DNA from: Sulfurirhabdus autotrophica
Lineage (GTDB): Bacteria; Pseudomonadota; Gammaproteobacteria; Burkholderiales; SMCO01
Length of the DNA stretch: 54,179 bases
NCBI RefSeq assembly: GCF_004346685.1
Contig: NZ_SMCO01000021.1
Coordinates: 1 to 54,179, forward strand
Direction of reading: 5' to 3'
Shown: piece after piece, positions 20,824 through 47,636 of the stretch
How positions within the stretch are numbered: the first letter of the stretch is position 1
Layout of the letters: each line of letters begins with the position of its first letter
Program-made: the position numbers and the translations under genes
Notes under the pieces: model-generated
The model's database searches: none
Told to the model about the DNA's origin: nothing
What the model saw: only the letters and a program-made list of their open reading frames with translations

Positions 20824-22634
<1,811 letters not shown>

Positions 22635-22879: not shown

Positions 22880-23647
22880 ATGGTTATAGATCAACGCGAC
22901 GCAGATAATTGGCAAAACACCATTGTTTCATTCGAGCCCGAACATCGATTGAGAGATTTATGCATTTCTGAGCCTGACCAACCCAATACACATGAGGTTG
23001 CGGTTCAGCAGCAGAAATTTAAAATCCGGTTGGCTACCAATGAAGACCGCCGGGATTCTGCAAGCCTGTTAATTGAAAAAATGTATTCTTGGCGCGGCTA
23101 TGCAACTGGCGCGACAAGCAACGAAGAACCCAACCGGGTTACGCTGGTGGCTTCTGCCAATGAACATATTCTGGCTACGTTAACCTTGGGCTACGATTCA
23201 CCAATGGGGTTAATGGTCGATGACATGTACAAAACAGAAGTTGACAGCCTCCGCAATTCTGGACGCGTTGTTTGTGAACTGACCAAATTAGCTGTTGATC
23301 AGAATGTTCGCTCCAAAGATGTGCTGGCTTCCCTATTCCACATTGCTTATATATATGGAAAAAAAATTCATAACGGCACGGATTTTGTCATTGAAGTAAA
23401 CCCAAGGCATGCTCTATTCTATAAAAAAATGCTTGGTTTCGAAGATTTTGGTGAAGAAAAAACATGCCCGCGCGTCAACGCGCCAGCTATCTTGCTTAGA
23501 CTGGATCTCGACCATGCTACGCGTAAAATTGCAGAACTGGGTGGGAAAAAGAACTTGGCAAAAGGTGAAAAATCATATTACCCATATTTCTTTACACCCG
23601 AAGATGAACTGGGGATTACGCTGCGACTTCGCCGGGAGACCCCGTGA
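22880..23647 (+). CDS. FeeM-like N-acyl amino acid synthase (acyl-homoserine-lactone-synthase-like GNAT)
   Basis: A 255-residue soluble protein of the GNAT / LuxI-like superfamily. The core (about residues 45-210) includes F-K-I-R-L-A, the R-V-V-C-E-L-T-K-L-A-V strand and a C-terminal H-A-L-F-Y-K-K-M-L-G-F followed by N-A-P-A-I-L-L-R-L-D-L-D. This pattern is shared by FeeM-type synthases, which transfer fatty acyl groups from acyl carrier protein to an amino acid, and by acyltransferases associated with PEP-CTERM/exosortase loci. Substrates cannot be read from sequence. It is the first of four co-directional genes. A GAGG element lies about 14 bases before the ATG, rather far. Confidence 0.75.
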   Translation: MVIDQRDADNWQNTIVSFEPEHRLRDLCISEPDQPNTHEVAVQQQKFKIRLATNEDRRDSASLLIEKMYSWRGYATGATSNEEPNRVTLVASANEHILATLTLGYDSPMGLMVDDMYKTEVDSLRNSGRVVCELTKLAVDQNVRSKDVLASLFHIAYIYGKKIHNGTDFVIEVNPRHALFYKKMLGFEDFGEEKTCPRVNAPAILLRLDLDHATRKIAELGGKKNLAKGEKSYYPYFFTPEDELGITLRLRRETP

Positions 23648-23861
23648 TGGGTTATGCCATTTGACGGAAGAATGACGATAGTCTTCATTTCCAGCCAGTT
23701 AACTCATAAAACCATGAAATAACGCTTCGAAGATTAAATTGGCTGGTTTCAGGAACAGCCACTATCTACCGTAAAATGCAATGCAATCCGGATAGTTCCG
23801 CAGTATAGAAACCTTTTTACATATACGCATATGACCACTTCCAGATAATTACAATTTCCTT

Positions 23862-24734
23862 ATGTCCGACACCTTCAACTACTCAGAAGCTTTTTCTCGC
23901 AATATCGGCTGGGTAACCGAGCAGGAACAGGAGATTTTACGTAATAAGCGTATAGCTATCGCTGGCATGGGTGGCGTCGGGGGGATTCATCTCCTTACTT
24001 TGGCCAGACTGGGGATTGGCGCTTTCCACATTGGTGATTTTGATGAATTTGACCTGGTAAACTTCAACCGCCAAGCAGGCGCATCCATGTCAACATTGGG
24101 CCAGCCTAAAGTACAGGTCATGGCTAATTTTACCAAGGACATCAACCCTGAAGCCGATATTAAAATATTCTCTGAAAAAATAGACAAAAACAATTTGTCA
24201 GATTTTTTAAGCGGTGTTGATCTATACGTAGACGGACTTGATTTTTTTGCCTTTTCTGCGCGCCAAGCTACTTTTAAAGCCTGTGCCGAAATGGGAATTC
24301 CAGCTATTACAGCTGCACCATTGGGCATGGGTACTGCATGGCTGAACTTTCTTCCTGGCAAAATGACCTTCGAAGAGTATTTTCTAATGGGAAACCATTC
24401 GGATGAAGAAAAAGCGCTACGTTTCATGCTCGGACTAGCACCGGCGAGACTTCAACTTGGATATTTAGTCGATCCTTCCCGCGTAAACTTTGCTGAACGA
24501 CGGGGCCCTTCTAGTATTATGGGATGTCAGCTATGCGCAGGTGTTGCTGCTACTGAAGCCCTTAGAATACTGTTAAATCGTGGAAATATCAGGACAGCAC
24601 CCTTCGGCGCACATTTCGATGCATACCGAAATAAACTGGCCCACACCTGGCGACCGGGGGGCAATAACCATCCGTTACAGCGCATTGCGCTCTCCCTGGC
24701 AAGAAAACGTTTCAGAAAAATTATGGCCAAATAA
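23862..24734 (+). CDS. ThiF/MoeB/HesA-family E1-like adenylyltransferase
   Basis: A 290-residue E1-like enzyme. The nucleotide-binding loop G-M-G-G-V-G-G is near residue 36, the adenylation Asp/Asn/Arg residues lie in G-D-F-D-E-F-D-L-V-N-F-N-R-Q, and a conserved D-G-L-D-F follows near residue 125. It lacks the paired CxxC zinc motifs of MoeB/ThiF; only C-Q-L-C is present near residue 225. No ubiquitin-like partner (ThiS/MoaD) is nearby, so it may activate a small carboxylate. It stops five bases before the nitroreductase-like gene. In mycobacteria Rv1355c, as I recall it, the same two domains are fused, which supports joint function. Confidence 0.8.
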   Translation: MSDTFNYSEAFSRNIGWVTEQEQEILRNKRIAIAGMGGVGGIHLLTLARLGIGAFHIGDFDEFDLVNFNRQAGASMSTLGQPKVQVMANFTKDINPEADIKIFSEKIDKNNLSDFLSGVDLYVDGLDFFAFSARQATFKACAEMGIPAITAAPLGMGTAWLNFLPGKMTFEEYFLMGNHSDEEKALRFMLGLAPARLQLGYLVDPSRVNFAERRGPSSIMGCQLCAGVAATEALRILLNRGNIRTAPFGAHFDAYRNKLAHTWRPGGNNHPLQRIALSLARKRFRKIMAK

Positions 24735-24739
24735 AGTAT

Positions 24740-25813
24740 ATGACAGAAATGTCTGGAAAATTAGAGGCGATTCTAGAACTGGCCCGCTGGGCCCCTAGTG
24801 GTGACAACACGCAACCATGGCGTTTTGAGAAAGTGTCAGACAACCATTTGGTCGTACATGGTTTTGATACCCGTGATCACTGTGTCTATGACCTGGATGG
24901 CCACCCGAGCCAAATTGCCATAGGTGCTTTGCTTGAAACAATCGCTATTGCCGCCAGCGGTCAGGGATTAACCGCTATTTTTCAGCGACGCTTGAACTTA
25001 CCTGAAACCACTCCGACGATTGACGTGCAGTTCGAACTTAATTCTCAACTAAAACCGAATGAACTGATTCCCTATATTACTCAGCGTAGTGTGCAACGCC
25101 GGCCATTACATATGCGCCGTTTATCACCAATAGAAAAAAACGCGTTGGAAGCGGCTGCGGGCAATGACTTTCAGATTTTTTGGATAGAAGGGTTTTCAAA
25201 TAAGCTAAGCACTGCCAAGCTAATGTTTGCAAACGCCAAACTGCGGCTGACCATTCCCGAAGCCTATGAAGTGCACCGTAGCGTGATTCAATGGAATTCA
25301 CAATATAGCGAGGATAAAGTACCAGATCAAGCAGTGGGTCTCGACCCGCTTACACTCCGGCTTATGCGATGGGTAATGCAAAGCTGGCAGCGTGTCTCAT
25401 TTTTTAATCGATATTTGGCCGGCACTTTGGCCCCTCGCTTACAACTCGATCTCATACCCGGGATTGCCTGCGCCGCCCATTTTGCTTTGATTGCCAGGCA
25501 AGAACCAGAAAGCATTGATGACTATATAAGTGCTGGTCGGGCATTACAACGTTTCTGGCTCACTGCAACCAAACTGGATTTACAGTTACAACCGGAGATG
25601 ACCCCCCTAATTTTTGCGGCTTATACCCGACAGAAGATTCAATTTTCACAAACATCTGGTGCAATGGAAACCGCTATCAGCCTTGCAAAACAACTGAAAA
25701 ATCTTCTAGGCAATAGCACTCGCCGCGCCGTATTCATGGGTAGAATAGGTGCTGGCCTTGCTCCCAAAGCACGCTCACTCAGACTTGCTCCGAATCGTTT
25801 GAGAAAAAATTGA
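24740..25813 (+). CDS. Nitroreductase-family (Acg-like) FMN protein
   Basis: A 357-residue protein. Its start (A-R-W-A-P-S-G-D-N-T-Q-P-W-R-F) is the typical nitroreductase FMN-binding element, and the rest resembles the long Acg-type subfamily more than classical 200-residue nitroreductases. It probably binds FMN and carries out a redox step; substrate unknown. It is tightly linked to the preceding ThiF-like gene (five-base gap) and to the following glycosyltransferase. E1-like plus FMN-enzyme pairing also occurs in azole-forming peptide pathways, but no precursor peptide is seen. Confidence 0.75.
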   Translation: MTEMSGKLEAILELARWAPSGDNTQPWRFEKVSDNHLVVHGFDTRDHCVYDLDGHPSQIAIGALLETIAIAASGQGLTAIFQRRLNLPETTPTIDVQFELNSQLKPNELIPYITQRSVQRRPLHMRRLSPIEKNALEAAAGNDFQIFWIEGFSNKLSTAKLMFANAKLRLTIPEAYEVHRSVIQWNSQYSEDKVPDQAVGLDPLTLRLMRWVMQSWQRVSFFNRYLAGTLAPRLQLDLIPGIACAAHFALIARQEPESIDDYISAGRALQRFWLTATKLDLQLQPEMTPLIFAAYTRQKIQFSQTSGAMETAISLAKQLKNLLGNSTRRAVFMGRIGAGLAPKARSLRLAPNRLRKN

Positions 25814-25843
25814 TTGCCTCTGGCCCTGGAAAAATCTAATAGA

Positions 25844-27058
25844 ATGCCCCGTAAACGCGTACTGTTTATTGCTGAGGCAGTCACCCTTGCTCATGTAGCC
25901 AGGCCCTACTTGTTGGCTACAGCGCTTGATCCCGAAAAGTATGAAATTTGCTTTGCCAGTCACCCCCGATACAAGTCATTAATGGGGGAAATCCCCTTTC
26001 TCTGGCGAGACATTACTTCCATCCCCAGTGAGCAGTTTCTTACCGCTCTTTCAAAAGGAAGTCCGGTTTACAATACCGAAACATTGCGTAATTACGTTAA
26101 AGAAGATCTTGATCTGATAAGACAATTCAATCCGGATGTAATTATTGGTGACTTCAGGTTATCTTTATCCATCAGCGCCCGTGTTTCCAATAAGCCTTAT
26201 ATTGCGCTAACCAATGCTTACTGGAGTCCTTATGGTAAACATCCCTTTCCTGTCCCGGAACTCCCTGTCACTAAAATTTTTGGCGTCAGGTTTGGTCAAA
26301 TTTTATTTAATATAGCCCGTCCTATCGCTTTTGCTTTCCATAGCATCCCATTGAATAAAATAAGAAAAGAATACGGACTCCCCTCCCTTGGCTTCAATCT
26401 GCAGCACATTTATACTGATGGGGACTATACGGCTTACGCTGACATACCAGAGATTTCACCTACCTTTAATTTGCCGTCCAATCATACCTACATTGGCCCG
26501 CTTGAATGGTCCCCCAGCATTGCCATGCCCTCTTGGTGGGAAACCATTCCCAAAGACCGGCCTGTCATCTATGTAACGTTTGGAAGTTCTGGAAAAAGCG
26601 ACCAGCTTGGCCTCATCATTCGGGCTTTACAAGACCTCCCGGTATCGCTCGTTGCTGCAACAGCAGGCCGCACGAATATTCCGCAGCACGCTGATAACAT
26701 ATATATAGCAGACCACGTTCCTGGTAAAAAAGTTGCCGCTGCCGCTGCACTGGTAATCTGCAATGGGGGGAGCCCGACGACTTACCAGGCACTCAGTGAA
26801 GGCAAGCCCATGATCGGAATTGCCAATAATCTGGATCAGTATCTGAATATGTCCATGGTACAAAATGCTGGCGCAGGAAAGTTACTTCGCGCCGGTCAAA
26901 CTTCTGTCTCAGGCATCAGAAAGGCAGTTGAAGCAGTCCTTTCAGATAGGGAAATGGCAAGTAATGCACAAAATTTAATGCATCTCATAGCACAATGCCA
27001 TCCGGAAGAAAAATTCGAGGCTTTGTTACAAAGGGCCATAAACCAGCCCTTAGCTTGA
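25844..27058 (+). CDS. GT1-type (UGT/MGT-like) glycosyltransferase
   Basis: A 404-residue GT-B glycosyltransferase. The N-terminal acceptor half starts R-V-L-F-I-A-E-A-V-T-L-A-H-V-A-R-P. The C-terminal donor half has Y-V-T-F-G-S-S-G, then I-C-N-G-G-S-P-T-T-Y-Q-A-L-S-E-G-K-P and N-N-L-D-Q, the sugar-nucleotide motif in which the usual His is Asn or Cys. Enzymes of this type glycosylate lipids or small molecules. The ATG at 25844 is preferred; a TTG at 25814 immediately after the preceding stop would add ten residues. It is the last of the four-gene run. Confidence 0.82.
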   Translation: MPRKRVLFIAEAVTLAHVARPYLLATALDPEKYEICFASHPRYKSLMGEIPFLWRDITSIPSEQFLTALSKGSPVYNTETLRNYVKEDLDLIRQFNPDVIIGDFRLSLSISARVSNKPYIALTNAYWSPYGKHPFPVPELPVTKIFGVRFGQILFNIARPIAFAFHSIPLNKIRKEYGLPSLGFNLQHIYTDGDYTAYADIPEISPTFNLPSNHTYIGPLEWSPSIAMPSWWETIPKDRPVIYVTFGSSGKSDQLGLIIRALQDLPVSLVAATAGRTNIPQHADNIYIADHVPGKKVAAAAALVICNGGSPTTYQALSEGKPMIGIANNLDQYLNMSMVQNAGAGKLLRAGQTSVSGIRKAVEAVLSDREMASNAQNLMHLIAQCHPEEKFEALLQRAINQPLA

Positions 27059-27161: not shown

Positions 27162-28685
27162 TTAGAAACTATAGCGCGCCTCTGTAAAGACACGGTCCTT
27201 GTTGTCATACTGCCCAAACAGCCCGGTAGGAGGTCCTTCAAAAATATCTGCGCCTGCTGCCAAACGCCAGTTTCCATCAACTTTCCAGGTTACTTTAAAT
27301 TGCGCAGACCAGTCTTTGCGATTCAAACTCCTTATCAACAAAAGCTCAGGTTCCAGTTTGGGATGCAAAGCCTGTGTACTGAAAAGAATCGATACACCAC
27401 TTTCGGTTGTATGAGGCACAATTCCTGCATCGTGATCAGGAAACCAACGTTGAAAGAGTTGCAAGTTAAATCGGGTTTCTTTCGGAAAACTCCATTCCAG
27501 CCCAACTACATAATCCAGCATATCCTGCTTCACCAAGCCATCAGCATAAACTGCATTTGTTGTGCTAAATAGTTTATTTTTAGTGTAAATCACCTCCGCC
27601 TTTAGCAACATCGGCCCCAAATCTTTACCCAACGTGCCACCAACTTGATGAATACGTTTATGAATAGGCTCATAGGTAATGGTAGGTGTTGGTAACAACG
27701 CTATTTGGCGAGAGAAAGCAGCCGAGGGGTCATTGGCTGTATAGTAAAATCCGGAAACATCCCAGCCCCCGGTGAGATAAGACAATCGCGCGCCATAGGC
27801 ACCGTCATTCAGTCCCGTTGGTTGCTTTTCGGAAGCAATCACCGTTTGAAAGCCAGCCACCGTAGGGGGATTGAGGGGATAAAACTCACTTCCTGGCTTA
27901 CCGATATTATCGTAGCTCATGTAAGGTATCCACACCCCTTCAGCATGAAAATCCCCTTTGAAATATTCTGCTCGCGCTGCCCATTGCGGAATGCGTATCA
28001 TGTCAAAATCCGGCAGTATAAACTGCCGCATATCCTTGGCGGATACCACGTCTGCGAAAAACAACCCGACCATTTCACCCCAGACTATATGCTGCCGGCC
28101 CACACGAAAATCCAGATCTCCTGCTGAAAAATCTGCATAGGCTTCGCGAACCATGGCTTCAAAGCGCTGATCTTTACGTACCTCTGATGGGTAATAATTA
28201 GTCAGATCATAGATAGGATCATAATTTACACGGCCACCCAGCTTCCAAGCCACCCCACCTGCAGTACGGCCTTTGGTTGAAAGGTCCAGAGTGTTATTGA
28301 ATCGGGACCAATGCTTTTTGTCTGCGTAAGTGTAAGCAAGATCGTTTTGGTAAAACCCGGTAAACTGTAGGGGCGCTGGCGCTGACTGTTTCAGGTTTTC
28401 TGTTGCCCTGAGCGCAGACGCCTCAGGCACAACAGTTGCTGGTGCAGCAACCGTAGACTTATCTTGCGTATGGCCAGCAGGAACATTCGATTCCGGTTTT
28501 TTCGCGGGCTGTTTGGCTTCAGGTGCAGGGTCTCCAAAGAGATCGTCCATGGATTGGGCTTCGACTTTGCCTTTTCCTGCCGCAGTTGCCGGGTCAGCTG
28601 CAAACAACAAACCTAATAATAGTGTTCCAACCAGCCAAGATGACTGATTTAATCGTCGATCATTAAAACCACCCTTTTTTTCCAC
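27162..28685 (-). CDS. Outer-membrane beta-barrel protein, DUF1302-like
   Basis: A 507-residue exported protein. A signal peptide (hydrophobic segment near residues 16-32, cleavage after A-T-A-A) is followed by an Ala/Pro/Lys-rich linker of about 60 residues and then a porin-like barrel of alternating strands. The C-terminus A-R-Y-S-F ends in Phe, as required for BAM insertion. Parts such as F-R-V-G-R-Q-H-I-V-W-G-E resemble DUF1302-type proteins, which often accompany lipid transport genes. It starts with GTG preceded by a GGGGAG ribosome site, 10 bases after the ATPase gene, so the two are one operon. Confidence 0.75.
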   Translation of the reverse strand: MEKKGGFNDRRLNQSSWLVGTLLLGLLFAADPATAAGKGKVEAQSMDDLFGDPAPEAKQPAKKPESNVPAGHTQDKSTVAAPATVVPEASALRATENLKQSAPAPLQFTGFYQNDLAYTYADKKHWSRFNNTLDLSTKGRTAGGVAWKLGGRVNYDPIYDLTNYYPSEVRKDQRFEAMVREAYADFSAGDLDFRVGRQHIVWGEMVGLFFADVVSAKDMRQFILPDFDMIRIPQWAARAEYFKGDFHAEGVWIPYMSYDNIGKPGSEFYPLNPPTVAGFQTVIASEKQPTGLNDGAYGARLSYLTGGWDVSGFYYTANDPSAAFSRQIALLPTPTITYEPIHKRIHQVGGTLGKDLGPMLLKAEVIYTKNKLFSTTNAVYADGLVKQDMLDYVVGLEWSFPKETRFNLQLFQRWFPDHDAGIVPHTTESGVSILFSTQALHPKLEPELLLIRSLNRKDWSAQFKVTWKVDGNWRLAAGADIFEGPPTGLFGQYDNKDRVFTEARYSF

Positions 28686-28695
28686 GGAGCTCCCC

Positions 28696-29679
28696 TTAGT
28701 CCATTATTTGGCCATCGGCCAGTTCAATTACTCTGTCAGCCATCTCCATCACCCGTGCATCGTGGGTAGAAAAGACGAAAGTCGTACCTTCTTCCTGGTT
28801 TAATTCTTTCATTAGCCGAAGAATCCCTTCACCCGTTTTATGGTCCAGATTTGCTGTTGGCTCATCAGCTAAAACAATGCCTGGACGAGTAGCAAGAGCA
28901 CGTGCAATGGCCACTCGCTGACGCTGCCCTCCACTTAACTCATTAGGGCGATGATGCACGTATCGATCAAGCCCGACTACTTTCAAATAATGCGCTACCC
29001 TTTCTTGTCGCACTGCTTTAGTCACCTCTCGCTGCTGCAATAAAGGATATTCAACATTTTCCCAAGCGGAAAGAACCGGTAACAAATTGAAAGTCTGAAA
29101 AACAAAACCCAGCTTATTTAGCCGCAGATCCGCCAGTGCATCAGGTGATTTACCACTGATATCTTGTCCATCAAGCAAGATTTTTCCGGACGTTGGCGTA
29201 TCAATACAGCCAATCATGTTTAGCAACGTCGATTTTCCGCTTCCTGATGGGCCTGCCAGCGCTAAAAACTCACCTTTATTAATTGTAAGGGAGACATCAC
29301 GCAGCGCCGTAACAGTCTGCTTTCCAAGCGCATACTCCTTACTGATGGCTTGAATATCAATAATTGCTTCTGTGGGTTCCGCCGCACTTTCATCGTCATC
29401 AACAAATTCAAGCTGAAAAAAGTGAATAGCGAAATGATCTCCAATATTTAATTGCTTCCGCTTAATTTTTTCCCCATTCAACAACACACCGCTTCTGCTT
29501 TCAAGATCCTCCAGATAAAACAGGCCATCTTCCCAAATTATGCGGGCATGTCTACGGCTAACGCCTTTGTCCAGCAACTGAATCTGGCATTCCGACGACC
29601 TTCCAATTTTAAAATCTGCCTTATACAGACGAATGCGCTTTAACAGCTGTTGATTAAATTTTATCAAAACGCTAGGCAT
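28696..29679 (-). CDS. FHA domain fused to a LolD/MacB-type ABC ATPase
   Basis: A 327-residue fusion. Residues 1-95 form an FHA phosphothreonine-binding domain (F-K-I-G-R-S, V-S-R-R-H-A, V-L-L-N-G). Residues 105-327 form an ABC ATPase with Walker A G-P-S-G-S-G-K-S-T, Q-loop F-Q-T-F-N, signature L-S-G-G-Q-R-Q-R, Walker B V-L-A-D-E-P and a switch His in S-T-H-D. The ATPase half is of the LolD/MacB/FtsE kind that powers FtsX-like permeases. Those permeases are encoded 1-3.5 kb away in the same direction. The FHA domain suggests control by Ser/Thr phosphorylation. ATG with AAGGGG eight bases upstream. Confidence 0.9.
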   Translation of the reverse strand: MPSVLIKFNQQLLKRIRLYKADFKIGRSSECQIQLLDKGVSRRHARIIWEDGLFYLEDLESRSGVLLNGEKIKRKQLNIGDHFAIHFFQLEFVDDDESAAEPTEAIIDIQAISKEYALGKQTVTALRDVSLTINKGEFLALAGPSGSGKSTLLNMIGCIDTPTSGKILLDGQDISGKSPDALADLRLNKLGFVFQTFNLLPVLSAWENVEYPLLQQREVTKAVRQERVAHYLKVVGLDRYVHHRPNELSGGQRQRVAIARALATRPGIVLADEPTANLDHKTGEGILRLMKELNQEEGTTFVFSTHDARVMEMADRVIELADGQIMD

Positions 29680-29832
29680 AGGCTAACCCCTTCGCTATCA
29701 AAATCGATAACTGGCACGGATAAAATTTAATATTTTGTTTTATGCGACGCATAAATATGACCCCACTCAACATATGTCATATAATACCCGATAATCTTGA
29801 GTTATACGTTTTGGGTTAACAGGACACAATTT

Positions 29833-30690
29833 ATGGTCATGACTCCATCTGATTCTCATTCAGTAAACCGCTTTCTCCATTTCAACACACAGCGAACTGA
29901 AGCCACTCCCCATGTCTTGCACTTTCGACTAAAACCATTATTGGTGGTTTTCATTGCCTTACTGCTATTGTTTTTATACAAACCTGCGCAAGCTGCTGAA
30001 AATACCGGTGAAGACAATATCGCGCGTGAAACGTTAACACGGGCAGATCGTATTCGCTTCCCTGACGAAGGATTTCAAGTAGATGTAACGATCACCACAA
30101 CAGAACCAGATACGGCTGAAGACGTGCGCACTTACCGGATACTCTCTAAAGGCAACAGCCATACCTTGGTGCAAACGACTGCGCCTGCAATTGATCGTGG
30201 GCAAATATTGCTGATGCGCGATCGCGACTTGTGGGCTTTTCTGCCCAATTTATCACAGCCCATTCGTTTACCTCTATCGCAAAAGTTAACGGGGCAAGTT
30301 GCAAACGGTGATTTGGCACGTGCTAATTTTACAGGGGATTACAATCCCAAAATTCTCCGGTCAGAAAAAATCAATGACGAATCCTATCAAGTGTTACAGC
30401 TGGATGCTGTTGACAATAGCGTGACTTATCGCAAAGTACTCTTCTGGGTAAACGCAAAAAACAATCGACCATATAAAGCGGAATTTTACGCTCTTTCTGG
30501 CCGCCTCCTTAAAACAGGTTACTACCAGGAATTTCTCCCGCTGGGAGGTGAAACAAGACCAACCAAACTTATCATAGAAGATTCTTTACGACGTGGCCGG
30601 CGTTCGGTGCTTGAATATAACAACATGGTTGTCAGAGATCTGCCTGATAAAATATTTACCAAAGATTATTTAAAAAAATTGAGTCGTTAA
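29833..30690 (+). CDS. LolA-like outer-membrane lipoprotein-sorting protein
   Basis: A 285-residue exported protein. A long N-terminal region precedes a hydrophobic signal segment (about residues 36-55, cleavage near A-Q-A-A). The mature part has the LolA/LolB-like half-barrel pattern of the COG2834 family (for example L-L-M-R-D-R-D-L-W-A-F-L-P and Y-K-A-E-F-Y). Such proteins carry lipoproteins or lipids across the periplasm. The ATG at 29833 has AGGA nine bases upstream; an earlier TTG at 29797 is less likely. It lies alone on the plus strand between two minus-strand parts of the Lol-like set and converges on the second permease. Confidence 0.85.
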   Translation: MVMTPSDSHSVNRFLHFNTQRTEATPHVLHFRLKPLLVVFIALLLLFLYKPAQAAENTGEDNIARETLTRADRIRFPDEGFQVDVTITTTEPDTAEDVRTYRILSKGNSHTLVQTTAPAIDRGQILLMRDRDLWAFLPNLSQPIRLPLSQKLTGQVANGDLARANFTGDYNPKILRSEKINDESYQVLQLDAVDNSVTYRKVLFWVNAKNNRPYKAEFYALSGRLLKTGYYQEFLPLGGETRPTKLIIEDSLRRGRRSVLEYNNMVVRDLPDKIFTKDYLKKLSR

Positions 30691-30756
30691 ATGCTGGCTG
30701 TATTGTCTGAAGCCTGTAAGCGCCCATTTTCAATTCAACCTGCCACCCATCTCTGA

Positions 30757-31968
30757 TTAAATGTTGTGGCGCAATGCATCCACAACCAATAAGCGTGAAG
30801 CCCGGCGCGCTGGCAATACCGCAGCCACGATGGCTGCCAGCGCGCCAATCAGCATCGCCGTTGCCACTACCCACGGCACCAGGCGAATGGTAGCAATGTA
30901 ACCAATATTTGAACCAGGGGGAGGAGGCATAGGGAGGCCAAAACCCGATATCGTTACAGCAAGCCCGATGCCGATAACCACGCCAAGAAAACTCCCAATC
31001 AGGCCAAGCAAAGCATTCTCGAGCAAAACCAGCTTAAAAAGCTGGCTTCGGCGTAACCCAACTGCAAGCAAGGTACCAAACTCACCCGTTCGTTCGTACA
31101 CCACCATATTAATGGTGCTGGCTACACTCAAAACCAGCATGACCAGTATAATCGACTGCAATGCGCCAAACTGGCGTCTGTAAAGGGCTTCTGTCTTTTG
31201 ATAAAAATCGGCCAGTTCATACCAGGGTTTTACTGTATATCCAAGGGGAGCCAGCTTGGCTCTGACAGCAGCTGCAACCAAGTCTGTTTTACTGGTATCG
31301 TCCAGCAATACAACCACACTATGTATCGACTGGGTAAACAATAATTCCTGAGCCGCTGGCAGCGAAATCCTTACAGCCCTGTCATCATAATCCTTTGAAA
31401 ATGTTCTAAAAACACCGACAACCTCATATTCAAGCGTATTCAGCGCACCTTCCCGTGTATTCACCATCAAGGTGACAAAACTACCGGGCTTCAACTTCAA
31501 AGCCGCAGCAACACCTTCACCGATTACCATCCCGAATGTGTCTTTTTCTTGCAAAGAGCGACCCGCAACAATCGTTGTTGAGGTACCCAAGCGTGCCTCC
31601 TTGCCTGGCTCCACGCCTTCGCCAATAATGGGTAAATCAGCACGGCCATTATTAGCCAATCCAGAAAAACTGACCCGACTCATCACAGCCTTCACATGCG
31701 GAATAGACTGAACGGCGTCTTGCACTATTTTGGGCTGCGTAATTACGTGCTTCAAAGGATCACCTTGCGCAGAATCCGCAAATCCATTCCGAAAAATCTG
31801 AATATGCCCAATCCGAGAGTGAATAGTTGACTCACGTAACTGTACAAAAACATCTTCAACAAATCCGCCGCTGATAATAATGGCAATCACACCCGTGATA
31901 ATGGCCGCCAGTGTCAACGAAGTGCGTAAGCGATTACGGAAGATATTGCGGAAGGCAAGCTTTAACAT
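30757..31968 (-). CDS. FtsX/LolE-type ABC permease (second of pair)
   Basis: A 403-residue inner-membrane permease of the MacB/FtsX type: one N-terminal transmembrane helix (after L-A-F-R-N-I-F-R-N-R-L-R-T-S), a periplasmic MacB-like domain of about 220 residues, and three C-terminal helices with the conserved G-x-L-L-A-V-G turn. It is presumed to pair with the preceding permease and the FHA-ABC ATPase. The ATG at 31968 fits the family start; the longer frame to 32055 would overlap the neighbour and adds no recognisable sequence. It lies 16 bases after that neighbour. Confidence 0.87.
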   Translation of the reverse strand: MLKLAFRNIFRNRLRTSLTLAAIITGVIAIIISGGFVEDVFVQLRESTIHSRIGHIQIFRNGFADSAQGDPLKHVITQPKIVQDAVQSIPHVKAVMSRVSFSGLANNGRADLPIIGEGVEPGKEARLGTSTTIVAGRSLQEKDTFGMVIGEGVAAALKLKPGSFVTLMVNTREGALNTLEYEVVGVFRTFSKDYDDRAVRISLPAAQELLFTQSIHSVVVLLDDTSKTDLVAAAVRAKLAPLGYTVKPWYELADFYQKTEALYRRQFGALQSIILVMLVLSVASTINMVVYERTGEFGTLLAVGLRRSQLFKLVLLENALLGLIGSFLGVVIGIGLAVTISGFGLPMPPPPGSNIGYIATIRLVPWVVATAMLIGALAAIVAAVLPARRASRLLVVDALRHNI

Positions 31969-31984
31969 AGGGCTTTCGCAGTCC

Positions 31985-33208
31985 TCAGATATTATGTCGC
32001 AAAGCGTTAATAATTTGAAGGCGAGACGCCTTCCATGCTGGATACAAGCCTGCAAGAGCGGTAGTTATAAACGCAATCAGAAACGCATTCATTACTACAT
32101 TTAATGTCACCCGTATTTCTGCCGTGAACCCTCTTTCCATACCAGGCGGCGGGGGCATAGGTATGCCAATAGCTGAGATCAGCTCAGCCAATCCGTAACC
32201 AATTACCAATCCCAACGTAGCCCCAATAAACCCCAGCAAAATTCCTTCAATGGCAAATAGCCGGAGAATCTTTTTTCGTTTAAAGCCAATAGCCAGAAGG
32301 GTACCGATCTCGCCCGTGCGTTCAAGCACGTTCATTACCAGCATGTTGGAAATACTCAGTACAATAATAAAACCTATGATCAGCCGCAATACATTCATCT
32401 GCTTGGAGAACAAGGCTACCGTTTTATTGTAGAAATCCGCTTGTTGGTACCATGGCACGAATTCCAGCTTATTATCTGCTAAAGGAAAGCGTGCTCGGAA
32501 CTGCGCAAGAAACGCATCCGTACGATCAGTTTCATTCAGCAGAACCAACCATGCATGTGCTCCGCTAACACGCAACAATGAGTTCGCAAGCCCGATAGGC
32601 AACCTTAAAGCTGCATCGTCATAGGCTTTGTTTGTGCTGGTAAAAATCCCTGTAACTTTTGCTTCTACAGCGTTCATACCGCCGCCAGAAGCCGTAGCCA
32701 GTAATGCAACGGTATCACCCGGCTTCACATTCAGACTTCGCGCCAATCCGCGTCCCAACAAAACCTCCTTGGCCGTCAAACTGGTTAAATCATGGCCATC
32801 CACAATATGAAGCGCCTTACTTAGCTTCACTTCTTTTTTCGGATCAACACCATCAGCTACAAAAGCGACTGTTGTTTCGCCATGACTAACAAGCCCCGTC
32901 ACTGACAAGCGGGGGGCGACCAGAACAACACCCGGCATAGATTCAATTGCACTACGCTGGGGCAATTTCTCCGGCAAAATAAAAGCATAGGGATTTGCAA
33001 CGCCCGCATTGAGATAGCCTGGGCGCACGACCTGGATGTGACCTAGCTGCGACTGAATGGTACCTTCACGCATCGCCCAAAAAATCCACTGAATAAAGCC
33101 ATCAGCAAGCACCAGGGAAGTGACACCAATAGCAACTGTAAGCAAAGCAGCCATTGCTCGGCGGCGATTTCGAGTGAGATTACGCGCAGCAATCAACAAA
33201 TTAATCAT
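31985..33208 (-). CDS. FtsX/LolC-type ABC permease (first of pair)
   Basis: A 407-residue permease with the same layout as the next gene: M-I-N-L-L-I-A-A-R-N-L-T-R-N-R-R-R before the first helix, a periplasmic domain, then three C-terminal helices (with G-T-L-L-A-I-G-F). Both copies share I-G-x-P-M-P-P-P-P-G near the end and R-L/R-A-S-R-L...A-L-R-H-N-I at the C-terminus. They are therefore diverged paralogues, as LolC and LolE are. Together with the ATPase they would form a heterodimeric extruder acting on lipid or lipoprotein cargo. Confidence 0.88.
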   Translation of the reverse strand: MINLLIAARNLTRNRRRAMAALLTVAIGVTSLVLADGFIQWIFWAMREGTIQSQLGHIQVVRPGYLNAGVANPYAFILPEKLPQRSAIESMPGVVLVAPRLSVTGLVSHGETTVAFVADGVDPKKEVKLSKALHIVDGHDLTSLTAKEVLLGRGLARSLNVKPGDTVALLATASGGGMNAVEAKVTGIFTSTNKAYDDAALRLPIGLANSLLRVSGAHAWLVLLNETDRTDAFLAQFRARFPLADNKLEFVPWYQQADFYNKTVALFSKQMNVLRLIIGFIIVLSISNMLVMNVLERTGEIGTLLAIGFKRKKILRLFAIEGILLGFIGATLGLVIGYGLAELISAIGIPMPPPPGMERGFTAEIRVTLNVVMNAFLIAFITTALAGLYPAWKASRLQIINALRHNI

Positions 33209-33472
33209 GGCTTACCAATACTTATTTTTAGATACGCTCAGACTTCAAACACAATATCTGAATGCGTTATTAAAAGATTGCAGAGTCGAAATTTGAACTA
33301 TTTTAGAATAAGCGCCATATATTATAAAAACACACCATTAGTACATCTAACGCATCATACAACATTATGTTTGCACAGTAGCATTGCTTAATAAAGTGCA
33401 ATTGTCGAACAATATGAGACTTTGGTCTACTCGTACCCTATTATCAATAGAAATGATATAACATTAAAATTC

Positions 33473-35092
33473 ATGTTAGAAAAATTCACAAATCAGCACT
33501 GGGATGTCATCATCGTCGGTACAGGTATGGGTGGAGCCACACTTGGTCACGCACTGGCCAAAGCGGGGAAGCGCGTGCTTTTTTGCGAGAAAGGCAAATT
33601 TCAGGATGCCGCCACAATACTTAAAGGCCTCTACCCCGAAGAGCAGTTCAATCCACCCTCTGTACCGCAACCCATTCATCAACCGCTATTAGCTGATGCT
33701 GGTCGTAACTGGGAAATAGTGACTGACCGAAGCACGGCTAACCCCAAAAGTTATGTTCCGTTTATAGGTGCTGGCACGGGTGGTTCAACTGCATTATATG
33801 GTATGGCGCTGGAACGTTTTTTCCCTCAAGATTTCACCCCTCGCGCTAACCATCCGCTAGCTACAGATAGCAGCCTGCCAGAATCCTGGCCCATCACTTA
33901 CGATGAGCTTGCCCCTTATTATAATGAAGCTGAAGCACTATTCAGAATTCGAGGGGATGTCGACCCCCTGCGTGACCGTCATTTCAATCCGCTGTATCAG
34001 AAGCCGCCTCCAATGACAAAAGGAAGCCACGCGCTTTTCGAGTTTCTGAAAGTGAAAGGGTATCATCCCTATCGCTTGCCCCTTGCTTGTGAATTTAAAG
34101 AAGGCTGCAACTGTTGCCAAGGCTTCCTTTGCCCTTTGCAATGTAAAAACGATAGCAACCGCGTTTGCCTGACCCCAGCTCTTGAAAAATTTGACGCTCA
34201 GCTCCTTGATGAATGCCAGGTCATAAGGCTGGAAGCTACGGCCACGAACATAACAGGTGTGGTCTGTAAGCGGCATGACGAGACATTTACCCTGCGTGCC
34301 ATGATTGTTGTTTTAGCCGCTGGTGCGCTTTACACCCCGGGCATTCTCTTGAATTCCGCTTCAACCCTTTGGCCGCAGGGGATTGCCAACAACTCCGGTA
34401 TGGTTGGCAAAAATTTAATGCGTCATTATGTTGATTTACACCTGCTCAATCTCAAAACTCGTGGTATTGCTGACAACAGATTCAAGGAACTGGCCTTCAA
34501 CGACTTTTATTTTTCAGCAAGCGAAAAACTGGGTTCAGTTCAATCTTTCGGGGCATTACCTCCCGCAAAACTGCTTGCGGAATCTCTCGGACACGATTTA
34601 CAGCATGGCCCGCTACCATTTGTCGGAATTTTTTACAAGCTAATTCAACCAATAATCCAAAAATATCTGGCATATATATTGCCTCGCCGCTTAATTTTAG
34701 CTTCCGTAGTTGAGGATCTCCCTTATACGGACAATCGGGTGGAAATTGACAAAAGCACCGGCCATTTGCAATTGTTTTACAACATTCATCCAGGCGAATT
34801 GAAGCGGATCGAACAAATGCGAAATAAAATGCATCATTTATTCAAGCCCTTCAAACCATTGCTGATTCAGCAAGCAGAAAACAATGAGCGTTTAGCTCAT
34901 GTCTGTGGAACTTGTCGATTTGGAGACGACCCTACCAAAAGCGTCCTGGACAAAAACAACAAAGCTCATGGAGTAGACAATCTATATATTGTCGACGCAT
35001 CATTTTTCCCCTCAAGTGGCGGTATTAATCCAGGTCTCACCATTGCTGCGAATGCGCTGAGGGTAGCGCGAGTTATACAATCACTGTGCTAG
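33473..35092 (+). CDS. GMC-family FAD oxidoreductase
   Basis: A 539-residue flavoprotein. The FAD-binding motif V-I-I-V-G-T-G-M-G-G is at residues 11-20, followed by F-C-E-K-G for the ribose. The C-terminal GMC block reads H-V-C-G-T-C-R-F-G, then D-N-L-Y-I-V-D-A-S and N-P-G-L-T-I-A-A-N-A. A cysteine-rich patch (C-x7-C-x-C-C-x4-C-x3-C, near residues 205-223) is unusual for simple choline/glucose oxidases and typical of GMC-like dehydrogenases for sterols or alcohols. I use the ATG at 33473; an upstream TTG at 33422 adds 17 unrelated residues. No ribosome site is obvious. Confidence 0.85.
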   Translation: MLEKFTNQHWDVIIVGTGMGGATLGHALAKAGKRVLFCEKGKFQDAATILKGLYPEEQFNPPSVPQPIHQPLLADAGRNWEIVTDRSTANPKSYVPFIGAGTGGSTALYGMALERFFPQDFTPRANHPLATDSSLPESWPITYDELAPYYNEAEALFRIRGDVDPLRDRHFNPLYQKPPPMTKGSHALFEFLKVKGYHPYRLPLACEFKEGCNCCQGFLCPLQCKNDSNRVCLTPALEKFDAQLLDECQVIRLEATATNITGVVCKRHDETFTLRAMIVVLAAGALYTPGILLNSASTLWPQGIANNSGMVGKNLMRHYVDLHLLNLKTRGIADNRFKELAFNDFYFSASEKLGSVQSFGALPPAKLLAESLGHDLQHGPLPFVGIFYKLIQPIIQKYLAYILPRRLILASVVEDLPYTDNRVEIDKSTGHLQLFYNIHPGELKRIEQMRNKMHHLFKPFKPLLIQQAENNERLAHVCGTCRFGDDPTKSVLDKNNKAHGVDNLYIVDASFFPSSGGINPGLTIAANALRVARVIQSLC

Positions 35093-35137
35093 TATGAACA
35101 AAATATTCAACCTCTCAATTTGACGCAAGGTTTATTC

Positions 35138-36013
35138 ATGAATAGCTATGTTTGTGCAATATGCGACCACCACACTCAAAATCCAGGTCCAAATGAATTG
35201 GGCTCATGCCGTGGTAATACAATACGTTTTCGTGATCAGATGTTCCACCTCTGGAAGTGTCCTAAGTGCCATAGCATACATAATGTAGATCCAGTTGATT
35301 TTGCCGATATCTACCATGACTACCCACTTAATAAGCGCAAACTCGACATTTATGCCCGCGGGACATTAAAAAACCTGTTAAAACGTCTTAAAAATGCAGG
35401 GCTTAGTGGAAAATCCGCATCCATACTGGATTATGGTTGCGGGAACGGCGTATTCCTGCAATTCCTGAAAGAAAATGGCTATCATAATATTGTTGGTTAC
35501 GACCCTTTTGTCGAGGAATACAAGCAATTACCAAATAAGCTTCTATTTGATTGTGTTGTAGCAAATGATGTCATTGAGCATGTACCTGATCCACGTGCCA
35601 CAATCAAAGAGTGTGCATCATTAGTCAAACCAGGGGGGCTGCTTTATCTTGGAACAGCTGATTCTGAACCGGTTAACATGAACGATCTTGAGCCACACAT
35701 CATGCGCTTGCACCAACCATTCCATCGCATCATTATCACTCAGGAAAGTTTGCGCCAACTTGCCAAAGAAACAGGGATGGAACTAATTAATGCATATCGC
35801 CGTTCTTATATGGATACCCTGATGCCTTTCTCAAACTACCGCTTTCTAGACGAATTCAACCGGGAACTGGGCCACACTCTGGATTCCGCCCTGGACCCAA
35901 AATCAGCCAGCATCGTTCCTCGAAAGCCAATGCTTCTATTTTATGGGCTCTTTGGGTATTTTTTTCCATCTGCCTATGAACCCGCTGTCATCCTGCGCAA
36001 ACCTGCTATTTAA
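35138..36013 (+). CDS. Class I SAM methyltransferase with N-terminal zinc-ribbon-like Cys pairs
   Basis: A 291-residue protein. An N-terminal ribbon (C-A-I-C near residue 5, C-P-K-C near residue 42) precedes a Rossmann methyltransferase with motif I I-L-D-Y-G-C-G-N-G, then V-A-N-D-V-I-E-H-V-P-D-P, and L-V-K-P-G-G-L-L-Y-L-G. This layout is common in methyltransferases acting on sugars or lipids in surface-polymer loci. The start is the ATG at 35138, with AAGG eight bases upstream. It follows the GMC oxidoreductase by 45 bases and precedes another methyltransferase by 46. Confidence 0.82.
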   Translation: MNSYVCAICDHHTQNPGPNELGSCRGNTIRFRDQMFHLWKCPKCHSIHNVDPVDFADIYHDYPLNKRKLDIYARGTLKNLLKRLKNAGLSGKSASILDYGCGNGVFLQFLKENGYHNIVGYDPFVEEYKQLPNKLLFDCVVANDVIEHVPDPRATIKECASLVKPGGLLYLGTADSEPVNMNDLEPHIMRLHQPFHRIIITQESLRQLAKETGMELINAYRRSYMDTLMPFSNYRFLDEFNRELGHTLDSALDPKSASIVPRKPMLLFYGLFGYFFPSAYEPAVILRKPAI

Positions 36014-36059: not shown

Positions 36060-36662
36060 ATGAAAATGAATTGGGTTGAAAAAATGCTGATGAATAACCC
36101 CATCCGCGCTGCATTTCAAATTTGGTATGAAGTCCCATTGCTTGAGCGACTTGGCGGTCGCACTGAAGGTATGAAAGTGTTGGAAGTAGGTTGTGGGCGA
36201 GGAGTAGGCACTGAACAAATACTGAATCGCTTCGGTGCAAGTTCTGTTTTGGCCATGGATCTGGACCCGGATATGGTGCGCTTGGCCCGTAAGCGTTTAA
36301 TGAAATATCCGGCAGACCGCTTATCTCTCACGGTAGGCGACGTAACGGCTATCCAGGCAGAAGATCAGTCTTTCGATGCTGTATTTGATTTTGCCATTAT
36401 TCACCATGTACCGATATGGCAGGATGCACTCAAGGAAATTCACCGTGTACTCAAACCTGGAGGGCGTTTTTTTTTCCAGGAAGTTACCAGCCATGCGCTG
36501 GAAAAATGGTCATATCAAACGTTTATGGTACATCCAGTAGAAAATCGATTTAGCGGAACTGAGTTTATCAATGAGCTGGAACGACTAGGTATCCAAGTCG
36601 GCACTAAGACAACTGAAAAATATGGCGGAGATTTTGTTTACGGAGTAGGAATAAAAAAATAA
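36060..36662 (+). CDS. Class I SAM methyltransferase
   Basis: A 200-residue methyltransferase of the UbiE/Methyltransf_11 type. Motif I V-L-E-V-G-C-G-R-G is near residue 41, D-L-D-P-D-M-V at the ribose-binding strand, and V-L-K-P-G-G-R-F-F-F-Q-E in the post-motif. The substrate is unknown. The ATG has GGGAGAG eight bases upstream. It is the third gene of a run with the GMC oxidoreductase and the first methyltransferase, and no terminator is visible before the PEP-CTERM promoter region. Confidence 0.85.
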   Translation: MKMNWVEKMLMNNPIRAAFQIWYEVPLLERLGGRTEGMKVLEVGCGRGVGTEQILNRFGASSVLAMDLDPDMVRLARKRLMKYPADRLSLTVGDVTAIQAEDQSFDAVFDFAIIHHVPIWQDALKEIHRVLKPGGRFFFQEVTSHALEKWSYQTFMVHPVENRFSGTEFINELERLGIQVGTKTTEKYGGDFVYGVGIKK

Positions 36663-36791: not shown

Positions 36792-36886
36792 TATTATTTA
36801 TTGCAAGAGGCTCAGTAACTGCCGCTAAATTATTAATGATGTAAAAAAACATCAAACCGAATTAATTTTAATTGGAGGTCAAAACC

Positions 36887-37906
36887 ATGAACATGAGACA
36901 AACAACCATTGCAGCAGCTGTTTTAACTGCACTTACAATTGGCGCTGCTAGCCAGGCTGCAGCGAGCGTTTATGCCCGCTCCTATCTTGATATCAGCAAC
37001 TTGGTAATCTTGCCAGTTACGTTCACTGGCCCTGGTGGAACGCCTGTTGTTAATACAACAGGCGTTAAAGTTGGTAACTACACCTTTTCCGGCCAAAATA
37101 CTGCATCACTGAATAACGGCCCAACAGCGGCCGACACAAAGGTTTGTTCAGGCATATTTGGGGGCGCTACGTCTTGTGGTGCTTCTGGCAACAGACTTGA
37201 CCCATTAGTTGTTAATGCGGCTGGTAGCACAACGATTCAAGGTGAAAATACTTTTACCTTTAACGGTCCAGGTGCTGGTCAATACGCCAACGCCGACGGC
37301 AAACTTTACACTGCTTCTGTTGCAGGTGATGCATCTACTCATACCAGAAACATTGCTGAATCTGAGTTGCAGACCGGTACTGCAGCAGCAGCAGCATCAG
37401 TAATTGATTCCATCACCAAGTTTACCTTCCAATTCAGCACAACAGCAGCAGGTACACTGATGATAGCATTTGATGCTATTCAAAACATGCTGGCATCTAT
37501 TAATGACCCAGCAGGTGCAGCGCATCAAGCTACCGGCACAATGAACACGGAATTAAAGATTTCTAATGATTCCAATCCAGCCGATTTCGTTCTTTACAAT
37601 CCAGATGGTAGCGCTACAACAGGTTGTGTCACAGTTGGCACGAGCTTTTCCTGCTCCGAACAACTTGACCCATTCTCACTGAATACAAGTGTTGCTACCA
37701 GTACTGATGGCACTTCCAGTGCTTTAGTTAATTCTGGTTCTTTCCTAACATTCATCGGACTAATGGGATCAGGTAACTATACCTTTACCTTATCTGAGAA
37801 GAAAAGTACGACTCTATCCAGAGTGCCAGAGCCAGGTATTATGTCTCTGTTAGGCATTGGACTACTTGGAATGGGTTTGGCTTACCGCCGTAAAAACAAT
37901 GCGTAA
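36887..37906 (+). CDS. PEP-CTERM sorting-domain surface protein
   Basis: A 339-residue secreted protein. A signal peptide (hydrophobic stretch around residues 6-27, cleavage after A-A-A-S) is followed by a Gly/Ser/Thr/Ala-rich, low-charge body. It ends in a PEP-CTERM signal: V-P-E-P-G, a hydrophobic helix (I-M-S-L-L-G-I-G-L-L-G-M-G-L-A) and the basic tail Y-R-R-K. An exosortase (not in this window) would cleave at the PEP site. The two Cys pairs in the body could be disulfide-bonded. The ATG at 36887 has GGAGG seven bases upstream. Expression fits a sigma-54/PrsR promoter, and a strong terminator follows. Confidence 0.93.
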   Translation: MNMRQTTIAAAVLTALTIGAASQAAASVYARSYLDISNLVILPVTFTGPGGTPVVNTTGVKVGNYTFSGQNTASLNNGPTAADTKVCSGIFGGATSCGASGNRLDPLVVNAAGSTTIQGENTFTFNGPGAGQYANADGKLYTASVAGDASTHTRNIAESELQTGTAAAAASVIDSITKFTFQFSTTAAGTLMIAFDAIQNMLASINDPAGAAHQATGTMNTELKISNDSNPADFVLYNPDGSATTGCVTVGTSFSCSEQLDPFSLNTSVATSTDGTSSALVNSGSFLTFIGLMGSGNYTFTLSEKKSTTLSRVPEPGIMSLLGIGLLGMGLAYRRKNNA

Positions 37907-44107: not shown

Positions 44108-44159
44108 TATTTTGCCTTGTTATATTTGATATTTTGCACACAGTTAAGAAAGAGCTTTT

Positions 44160-45512
44160 TTATTTCAACCCATAACGACTAACCAAATCATAAAGTGTCG
44201 GTCTGCTTACGCCTAATAATTCTGCAGCTTGTGCCACATTGCCGTTAGCCCGACCCATTGCCCTGACTACGGCCTTTCGCTCGGCCTCATCCCTGACTTG
44301 TCTTAAATTAATAGGCTCGCTTTCACCTTCAAAATGTGTCAATCCAAGATCTGCATCACTTATCTGTGAGCCTTCAGCCATAATGACAGCGCGCTTAATG
44401 ACATTTTCCATTTCCCTGACATTTCCTGGCCAGTTATGACTTTCGATCACAGTCAGCGCATCCTGGGAAAACCCTCTTAAAGCCCTGCCTTGCTGCTGAC
44501 TGAATTTATCCAGAAACGCATGGGCTAATAATGTTGGGTCTCCCTCGCGATCACGAAGGGGCGGGATATTGACCGTAATTTCGCTAATGCGGTAAAAAAG
44601 ATCTTCACGAAAACGACCGTCTTTTATTTGTTCATGCAATTTTTGGTGTGTTGCACACACTACTCGCACGTCTACCGGGACTTCACCTCTCCCGCCCAGC
44701 CTTTCAATAACACGCTCCTGTAAAAAACGTAACAATTTAGCCTGTAAAGACATGGGCAAATCACCAATTTCATCAAGGAACAATGTACCGCTATTGGCAT
44801 ATTCAATCTTGCCGATAGTTTGCTTCGTCGCTCCTGTGAAGGCACCCTTCTCGTATCCAAACAACTCACTTTCCAACAAATTTTCTGGAATAGCGGCACA
44901 ATTGATTGCAACAAATTTCTGGTTTAGTCGGGTACTCAAATCATGGAGAGATCTTGCCAGCAACTCTTTACCCGTCCCGCTCTCACCTAAAAGTAAAACT
45001 GTGGCATCGGAAGGCGCAACTTTTTCGACGGTTCGACATACTTTGAGCATTTGCGGGTCAACGCTGATGATACCTTGCATTGGGGATTCTTGATGGTTTG
45101 CCAATAATCTGCGATTTTCCTGCTCAAGATCATGCAATCGAAAAGCACGCCCTATAATCAGGGAAAGCATTTCAGGTTCAAATGGTTTCTGATAAAAATC
45201 GTAAGCACCAAGTCCAATTGCACGAACAGCATTTTCACGATCCTGATTTCCAGTCACCACGATTACTTTAGTGCCAGGAGCCAGAGCAAGCATTTGCTCT
45301 AATGTTGCTAACCCTTCGCTGGCGCCATCTGGGTCGGGTGGCAACCCCAAGTCCAATATAGCAACTGGCGGTTCAAAGCGTCGAATTTGATTCAATGCGC
45401 TTTCCCGATCTCCTGCAACCAGAAGTTCATACCCTTCGAGACTCCACCTTACCTGTTTTTGTAAACCGATGTCATCTTCAACAAGCAGCAACGTTTTTTT
45501 CGTTGAACTCAC
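44160..45512 (-). CDS. prsR: PrsR: sigma-54-dependent response regulator of the PEP-CTERM system
   Basis: A 450-residue NtrC-type activator. A receiver with Asp54 (A-I-L-D-L-G-L-P) is followed by an AAA+ domain with Walker A G-E-S-G-T-G-K-E near 176 and the sigma-54-contacting G-A-F-T-G-A near 224. A C-terminal Fis-type helix-turn-helix contains V-A-Q-A-A-E-L-L-G-V-S-R. The family is TIGR02915. It would be phosphorylated by PrsK and activate sigma-54 promoters of PEP-CTERM genes, such as the one at 36776-36791. Its ATG overlaps the prsK stop by four bases (ATGA). Confidence 0.95.
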   Translation of the reverse strand: MSSTKKTLLLVEDDIGLQKQVRWSLEGYELLVAGDRESALNQIRRFEPPVAILDLGLPPDPDGASEGLATLEQMLALAPGTKVIVVTGNQDRENAVRAIGLGAYDFYQKPFEPEMLSLIIGRAFRLHDLEQENRRLLANHQESPMQGIISVDPQMLKVCRTVEKVAPSDATVLLLGESGTGKELLARSLHDLSTRLNQKFVAINCAAIPENLLESELFGYEKGAFTGATKQTIGKIEYANSGTLFLDEIGDLPMSLQAKLLRFLQERVIERLGGRGEVPVDVRVVCATHQKLHEQIKDGRFREDLFYRISEITVNIPPLRDREGDPTLLAHAFLDKFSQQQGRALRGFSQDALTVIESHNWPGNVREMENVIKRAVIMAEGSQISDADLGLTHFEGESEPINLRQVRDEAERKAVVRAMGRANGNVAQAAELLGVSRPTLYDLVSRYGLK

Positions 45513-47611: not shown

Positions 47612-47636
47612 TAAGTAAATTGCCCGCCAATTGAGT

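Follow-up and report, generated by a model that had tools for sequence, protein, structure and literature searches.

A FeeM-ThiF-nitroreductase-glycosyltransferase locus of Sulfurirhabdus autotrophica resembles acyl-oxazolone pathways and is linked to a putative Lol-like export set

Introduction

The acyl-tyrazolones are built by three enzymes, TyzA, TyzB and TyzC, through N-acylation, ATP-dependent cyclisation by a ThiF homologue and O2-dependent desaturation by a flavin oxidase (PMC10404671), and TrzA together with the fusion protein TrzS carries out the same three reactions with tryptophan (PMC12856293; these and the other papers are cited here from excerpts of their text). The physiological role of acyl-oxazolones is called unresolved in PMC12856293. 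Here we describe a locus with a related gene set in Sulfurirhabdus autotrophica (order Burkholderiales), within the 54,179 nucleotides of contig NZ_SMCO01000021.1 (assembly GCF_004346685.1) that form the window of this analysis. Four genes on one strand (22880-27058) encode a FeeM-type N-acyltransferase, a ThiF-type adenylase, an Acg-type flavoenzyme of the nitroreductase superfamily (NTR) and a GT1 glycosyltransferase, and directly after them lies a second, non-canonical Lol-like set (27162-33208) comprising a LolD-like ATPase, two permeases, a LolA-like carrier and a DUF1302 barrel. We consider it probable, though far from certain, that the locus makes and exports an N-acyl-amino-acid-based lipid via oxazolone-type chemistry.

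Two further groups of described systems invite comparison. The clusters for stieleriacine, kyonggic acid and thalassotalic acid share with the window an N-acyl amino acid synthase (NAS), a ThiF protein and a nitroreductase, as well as a PEP-CTERM neighbourhood (PMC12479983, PMC7293339). Putative transporters have previously been suggested for product export in Stieleria, although the excerpts of these two papers describe no Lol-type set like that of the window, and GT1, sugar and transport terms were not found in the text of PMC12479983. On the side of transport, the AmeABCD system of Castellaniella resembles the window in joining a DUF1302 outer-membrane protein to a LolA-superfamily periplasmic protein; its pump, however, is of the RND (HAE3) type, as are the MMPL variants found in relatives of the window, whereas the window has a LolD/LolE-like ABC pump (PMC6394551).

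Identity of the core genes

Gene identities, folds, fusions and linkage are established in this work. The first core gene (22880..23647, + strand) encodes a FeeM-type amino-acid N-acyltransferase, our candidate for step 1, which matches PF21926 at 178.9 bits (cut-off 27) and the FeeM structure 2G0B at E 3.2e-13 (phmmer), and so supplies the N-acyltransferase of the FeeM/acyl-homoserine lactone synthase fold that is expected of an acyl-oxazolone pathway. The second (23862..24734, + strand) encodes a ThiF-type ATP-dependent adenylase, the proposed cyclase of step 2, scoring 453.6 bits against NF006077 (cut-off 266) and 145.3 bits against PF00899. Residues N67, R70, K83, D124, D127, C222 and C225 are invariant among nine homologues, D127 corresponds in alignment to the ThiF/TcdA motif's Asp, and TcdA and ThiF are the solved relatives of the protein. 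Its ATP site is predicted to be intact, and this putative cyclase adjoins the candidate oxidase, as in pathways where the two are neighbours or fused. The protein is also matched by the long NCBIfam profiles PRK14851 (ThiF and nitroreductase) and PRK14852 (FeeM, ThiF and nitroreductase), each of which describes a single-protein fusion. Its closeness to TcdA rather than ThiF (56.6 versus 53.3 bits) was set aside as an argument, the difference being too small.

The third gene (24740..25813, + strand) encodes NTR, a putative flavin mononucleotide (FMN) oxidase and the proposed desaturase of step 3. Over residues 5-352, almost its full length, it aligns to the C-terminal part of NF005901 ('Rv1355c family') at 106 bits, which is under that profile's whole-protein cut-off of 476. 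An AlphaFold2 model (mean predicted local distance difference test score, pLDDT, 84.3) has its nearest structural match in the Acg homologue 2YMV, the sole Foldseek match under 0.001 (E 1.3e-10), and superposes on it with Z 29.2 and a root-mean-square deviation of 2.9 over 298 residues, the next row standing at Z 16.6. By its predicted fold NTR is an Acg-type flavin-dependent oxidase. Its invariant residues R169 and Q284 fall near the places where linear mapping on NF005901 would put TrzS R540 and Q651, and may be their counterparts. The fourth gene (25814..27058, + strand, TTG start codon as listed) encodes a GT1 glycosyltransferase with an EryCIII-like C-terminal domain and a UDPGT match, in which H27, N317, G318, G319, D341 and Q342 are invariant among 11 homologues.

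All four reading frames thus lie where the original prediction had placed them and belong to the families it had named, including the gap of five bases between ThiF and NTR. Its picture of a single run is right as to direction, although FeeM stands 214 bp from ThiF and is joined less tightly than the other three genes. It had also named a fusion of ThiF and nitroreductase in Rv1355c, which both the NCBIfam profile and PMC10404671 bear out. That these are chance reading frames is excluded, because the core genes are conserved in relatives of other families.

At the level of family and fold the first three genes match the acyl-oxazolone pathways OxzAB, TyzABC and TrzAS. As in the window, the acyltransferase, ThiF protein and flavin-dependent oxidase of TyzABC are three separate genes with a transporter gene nearby (mmpL9 in tyz; PMC10404671); the window differs in having all its core genes on one strand, in its GT1, GMC oxidoreductase and methyltransferase genes, and in a Lol-type set in place of MmpL. 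OxzAB and TrzAS have the same acyltransferase, ThiF and oxidase activities (PMC12856293; OxzAB through citing papers), but there the ThiF and oxidase parts are fused.

Two observations concern FeeM and its surroundings. Besides the window's copy, three further FeeM-family matches occur in the organism's own genome, on contigs C15, C1 and C16 (L002-L004). A gene for a YcgR/PilZ-type cyclic di-GMP receptor (window 21867-22634) lies divergent from feeM and is present in 12/65 of the ThiF loci defined below; trzAS is likewise reported to adjoin cyclic di-GMP genes.

Conservation of the core and its predicted chemistry

We drew 399 genomes evenly from the window's order, the organism's own included, and defined 65 ThiF loci by NF006077 at E 1e-60. 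Neighbours were scored as far as ~10 kb to either side of ThiF, and their counts are minimum values because 15 of the 65 loci span less than 15 kb. A second, overlapping set comprised 80 named loci, the best 80 of 563. In 36/65 loci ThiF and NTR lie next to each other in the same direction, and in 12/65 they share one reading frame. The NTR count of 46 takes in distant (~25%) and opposite-strand matches. The strict co-directional order FeeM-ThiF-NTR occurs in 26/65 loci. Strict four-gene order is uncommon, being found in 6/65 (the window, L038, L040, L055, L060 and L077) and in four of the 80 named loci (L141, L176, L185 and L194, a Sulfuricella metagenome-assembled genome (MAG) and three Massilia). 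The co-occurrence in relatives on which the original prediction depends was therefore found, for three genes far more often than for four.

Two side observations belong here. A second, divergent (~25% identical) Acg/Rv1355c-type flavoenzyme lies near ThiF at L044:8153-9301, with similar genes in 10 loci. In L121-L135 (Janthinobacterium, Duganella, Rugamonas), ThiF and NTR are accompanied by a convergent GT1 gene 2-5 kb away, in some loci with PEP-CTERM-like genes in between, and no FeeM or TIGR03694 homologue was found in the stretch examined.

A ThiF fold with sequence features common to ThiF, MoeB and UBA5 could also belong to an E1 or adenylyltransferase that acts on a ubiquitin-like or sulphur-carrier protein. 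We regard this as highly improbable: ThiF is fused to the flavoenzyme in the 12 loci just mentioned and is linked to FeeM, and its characterised relatives work on small molecules (PMC10404671, PMC12856293). No carrier protein of this kind was found by Pfam among the 30 window proteins scanned, which were of ~110 amino acids or more.

The three core reactions can be drawn by analogy with those relatives, and the intact families, invariant ATP-site residues and fold are consistent with them. FeeM would load an amino acid, probably an aromatic one, with a long-chain acyl group, giving an N-acyl amino acid; ThiF would activate the carboxylate with ATP and close it on the amide oxygen to give an oxazolone; and the Acg-type flavoenzyme would desaturate the alpha-beta bond with O2, either after cyclisation or before it. 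The original prediction had proposed that ThiF and the nitroreductase share a substrate, an N-acyl amino acid rather than a peptide, and the published chemistry of relatives agrees (PMC10404671, PMC12856293). Its appeal to azole-forming logic is off in detail: the known enzymes do not build an azole from Cys, Ser or Thr but close an oxazolone (azlactone) ring on the carboxylate of the amino acid itself. Its chemical reasoning was close, and its interpretation as a whole is partly supported.

The same three enzymes might instead yield an open-chain N-acyl dehydroamino acid of the kyonggic or stieleriacine type as their true product, with the oxazolone a mere intermediate that is hydrolysed or captured. 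Producers of N-acyl dehydrotyrosines carry NAS, ThiF and nitroreductase genes and make open-chain acids, with no oxazolone observed (PMC12479983, excerpts), and acid hydrolyses oxazolones, while alcohols react with them (PMC12856293). TyzABC and TrzAS, however, give oxazolones when extraction is gentle, and the absence of oxazolone may therefore be an artefact. We take the open-chain product to be a real possibility, if one we would not favour.

A linked, putative Lol-like export set

Whereas the four-gene core joins a known pathway type, the newer part of the locus is the linked export set, which lies outside the interval of the original prediction. The DUF1302 protein, a putative outer-membrane beta-barrel (27162..28685, - strand), matches PF06980 at 69 bits. 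It is followed by a LolD-like ABC ATPase with an N-terminal FHA domain (28696..29679, - strand; ABC_tran and FHA), which scores 232.6 bits against TIGR02211, under the LolD cut-off of 307.75. Because FHA is covered in just 5/40 homologous ABC matches, we treat this domain as a lineage add-on and not as a defining part. The LolA-like periplasmic carrier (29797..30690, + strand) has a signal-peptide-like N-terminus, matches PF17131 at 154 bits and is closely related to 3BUU (Nitrosomonas NE2245; phmmer E 1.4e-91), an uncharacterised protein of the LolA superfamily with a solved structure. Two LolE/MacB-type permeases with MacB_PCD and FtsX matches complete the set: permease 2 (30757..32055, - strand; 97.7 bits to lolCE, under the cut-off), whose best solved match is LolE 7ARH (E 1.3e-17), with LolE, LolF and LolC ahead of MacB, and permease 1 (31985..33208, - strand; 123.7 bits to lolCE, cut-off 362.45).

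The set resembles LolCDE-LolA in its ATPase, FtsX-type permease pair and LolA-like carrier. It differs in scoring under the Lol cut-offs, in its added DUF1302 barrel, and in having canonical counterparts in another part of the genome: LolD and LolC/E lie on contig C1 with scores above their cut-offs (331.7 and 535.5 bits), and the genome's only PF03548 LolA match is on that contig as well. Judged from sequence, the window's set is distinct from the cell's normal lipoprotein-sorting genes.

Its linkage to ThiF is pronounced. At a threshold of E 1e-60, used for both permease 1 and GT1, permease 1 was found in 42/399 genomes and ThiF in 65/399, with 26 holding both where 6.8 would be expected from the margins (Fisher p 6e-13, uncorrected for relatedness). 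In all 26, which represent 11 families, the two genes lie on one contig at 1.0-13.5 kb. At the level of loci the permease counts vary with overlap handling (MacB1 24, MacB2 23, the pair 23 or 24). The full five-gene export set is present at 20 loci in 13 listed arrangements, a number that falls to 12 when a second ABC match of 33% identity in L091 is left out. A Nitrosovibrio locus, L191, likewise carries the five export genes. An MMPL pump occurs in 8/65 ThiF loci and never together with the MacB permease pair; a trio of MMPL, LolA-like and DUF1302 proteins is complete in six of the eight. The MMPL match in L097 is weak (23%), and L098 has neither of the other two parts. Among the 30 window proteins scanned no RND/MMPL pump was found. 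At L035:7707-12227, and also in L068, L082 and L088, FeeM and ThiF-NTR have MMPL, DUF1302 and LolA-like genes as neighbours, which seem to take the place of the ABC set. A 171-amino-acid open reading frame in L035 was considered as a shared component and dropped, having only weak likeness to the N-acetyl-sugar amidotransferase WbuX.

Sixteen genomes carry the permease without such a ThiF, and in 12 of them (all but G057, G223, G253 and G392) a FeeM or TIGR03694-type acyltransferase is nearby, the TIGR03694 assignment having been profile-confirmed on two proteins and extended by tblastn. It is for this reason that the exporter's constant partner seems to be amino-acid N-acylation and not ThiF as such. 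TIGR03694 proteins reportedly make N-acyl amino acids (Craig 2011, known to us through citing passages). An AMP-dependent ligase and a thioester-reductase-like protein occur near the export set in six loci that lack such a ThiF (L102, L105, L107, L110, L112 and L117), and may represent an alternative carboxylate chemistry.

The set could, on the other hand, carry some other cargo of the PEP-CTERM/exopolysaccharide (EPS) system, a lipoprotein or glycolipid, and lie near ThiF only through a shared region. This neighbourhood is a real rival because the export set accompanies PEP-CTERM genes and NAS genes are already known, from citing passages, near the same PEP-CTERM/exosortase region; PrsT or EPS genes occur in some of the 16 genomes without ThiF, and PrsT-like TPR genes are present in 27/65 ThiF loci. 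Against it stand the distance between permease and ThiF, which in many cases is 1.0-1.4 kb and is kept through rearrangements, a same-strand run in an Accumulibacter MAG (L197, described below), and the replacement by MMPL in other loci. We judge a different cargo to be rather unlikely.

Several results weigh against production and export of an acyl-oxazolone lipid by this locus, in addition to the open-chain products discussed above. Permease 1 was not found at the threshold in 39/65 ThiF genomes, nor within ~10 kb in 67/80 named loci (it was seen in 13), those without it including Janthinobacterium, Duganella and Massilia loci. A FeeM or TIGR03694 gene was not found within the stretch examined in 12/65 ThiF loci, or in 7/24 of those with the permease pair, and GT1 is present in only 15/65. 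The Fisher test on permease 1 and ThiF counts genomes as if they were unrelated. Nor is the export set confined to loci with ThiF: it is also present in PEP-CTERM/EPS loci that lack ThiF, so that it might carry a different molecule. Finally, the DUF1302 model is strand-rich with porin-like Foldseek matches but of low confidence (pLDDT 58.8), too weak to name a barrel class, which we dropped.

We nevertheless favour an N-acyl-amino-acid lipid as the cargo, and linkage and family membership point to an export route dedicated to such lipids, with the cargo here probably glycosylated. Permease, LolA-like carrier and barrel would move the lipid towards the cell surface. More tentatively, and with less confidence than we place in the pathway itself, the set may belong to an unrecognised Lol-type envelope route with interchangeable pumps (LolD/LolE-like ABC or MMPL), a shared LolA-like carrier and a DUF1302 barrel, whose cargo would be a glycosylated oxazolone; it is pure speculation that the reactive azlactone might on arrival acylate surface polysaccharide or PEP-CTERM proteins. 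On this reading the solved orphan NE2245 (3BUU) would acquire a function. The conserved linkage points to the envelope as the destination of acyl-oxazolones and yields a short list of candidate genes. If export of this kind is correct, a cargo would be assigned to DUF1302 and PF17131 proteins, one of which has a solved structure but no assigned function, and N-acyl-amino-acid lipids would be tied to the PEP-CTERM/exosortase region via transport and not by neighbourhood alone. Several of the hosts are non-pathogenic bacteria of soil and fresh water, and the idea is open to direct testing.

Glycosyltransferase and candidate tailoring genes

The GT1 subfamily is closely tied to the locus, being found in 18/399 genomes, 16 of which also hold ThiF; in 14 of these 16 a single contig carries both genes, no more than 9.8 kb apart. 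In the other two of the 18 (G062 and G253) GT1 lies beside the permease. GT1 and the other tailoring genes might serve an unrelated glycolipid or polysaccharide, as the rarity of strict four-gene order and the exopolysaccharide-type PEP-CTERM block nearby would allow, but the distribution just given argues otherwise and we hold this to be rather unlikely. From linkage and family, the lipid product is probably glycosylated by GT1.

The original prediction had the four genes right and overlooked, besides the export set, a GMC oxidoreductase (33422..35092, + strand), methyltransferase 1 (35120..36013, + strand) and methyltransferase 2 (36060..36662, + strand), which are locus members in relatives. 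In L197 the order ThiF-NTR-GT1-MacB1-MacB2-GMC-MT1-MT2 (MT, methyltransferase) is kept on one strand, the two methyltransferases having homologues there of 62% and 71% identity. On the basis of L197 and a few other loci, these possible tailoring enzymes might conceivably oxidise or methylate the product. Its decoration would fall to GT1 and perhaps to these three enzymes as well.

Regulatory scans and PEP-CTERM context

Scans for sigma-70 promoters and terminators were no richer than shuffled sequence (27 versus 27.7 and 15 versus 16.0, respectively). Control of the operon by PrsK/PrsR through sigma-54 was considered and rejected, as no TGGCAC-N5-TTGC motif (<=1 mismatch) lies upstream of feeM; across the window this motif has 10 matches where 6.2 are expected from shuffling. 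PrsK and PrsR belong to an XrtA/PEP-CTERM block further along (41312..49037, - strand), which also includes PrsT and an EpsB-type sugar transferase and was assigned by TIGR profiles, with TIGR02917, TIGR02916 and TIGR03013 above cut-off; PrsR was named as a response regulator/sigma-54 activator by Pfam and position. Between this block and the tailoring genes lies an EDSAP-1 family PEP-CTERM protein (36872..37906, + strand), which matches NF041538 at 221 bits.

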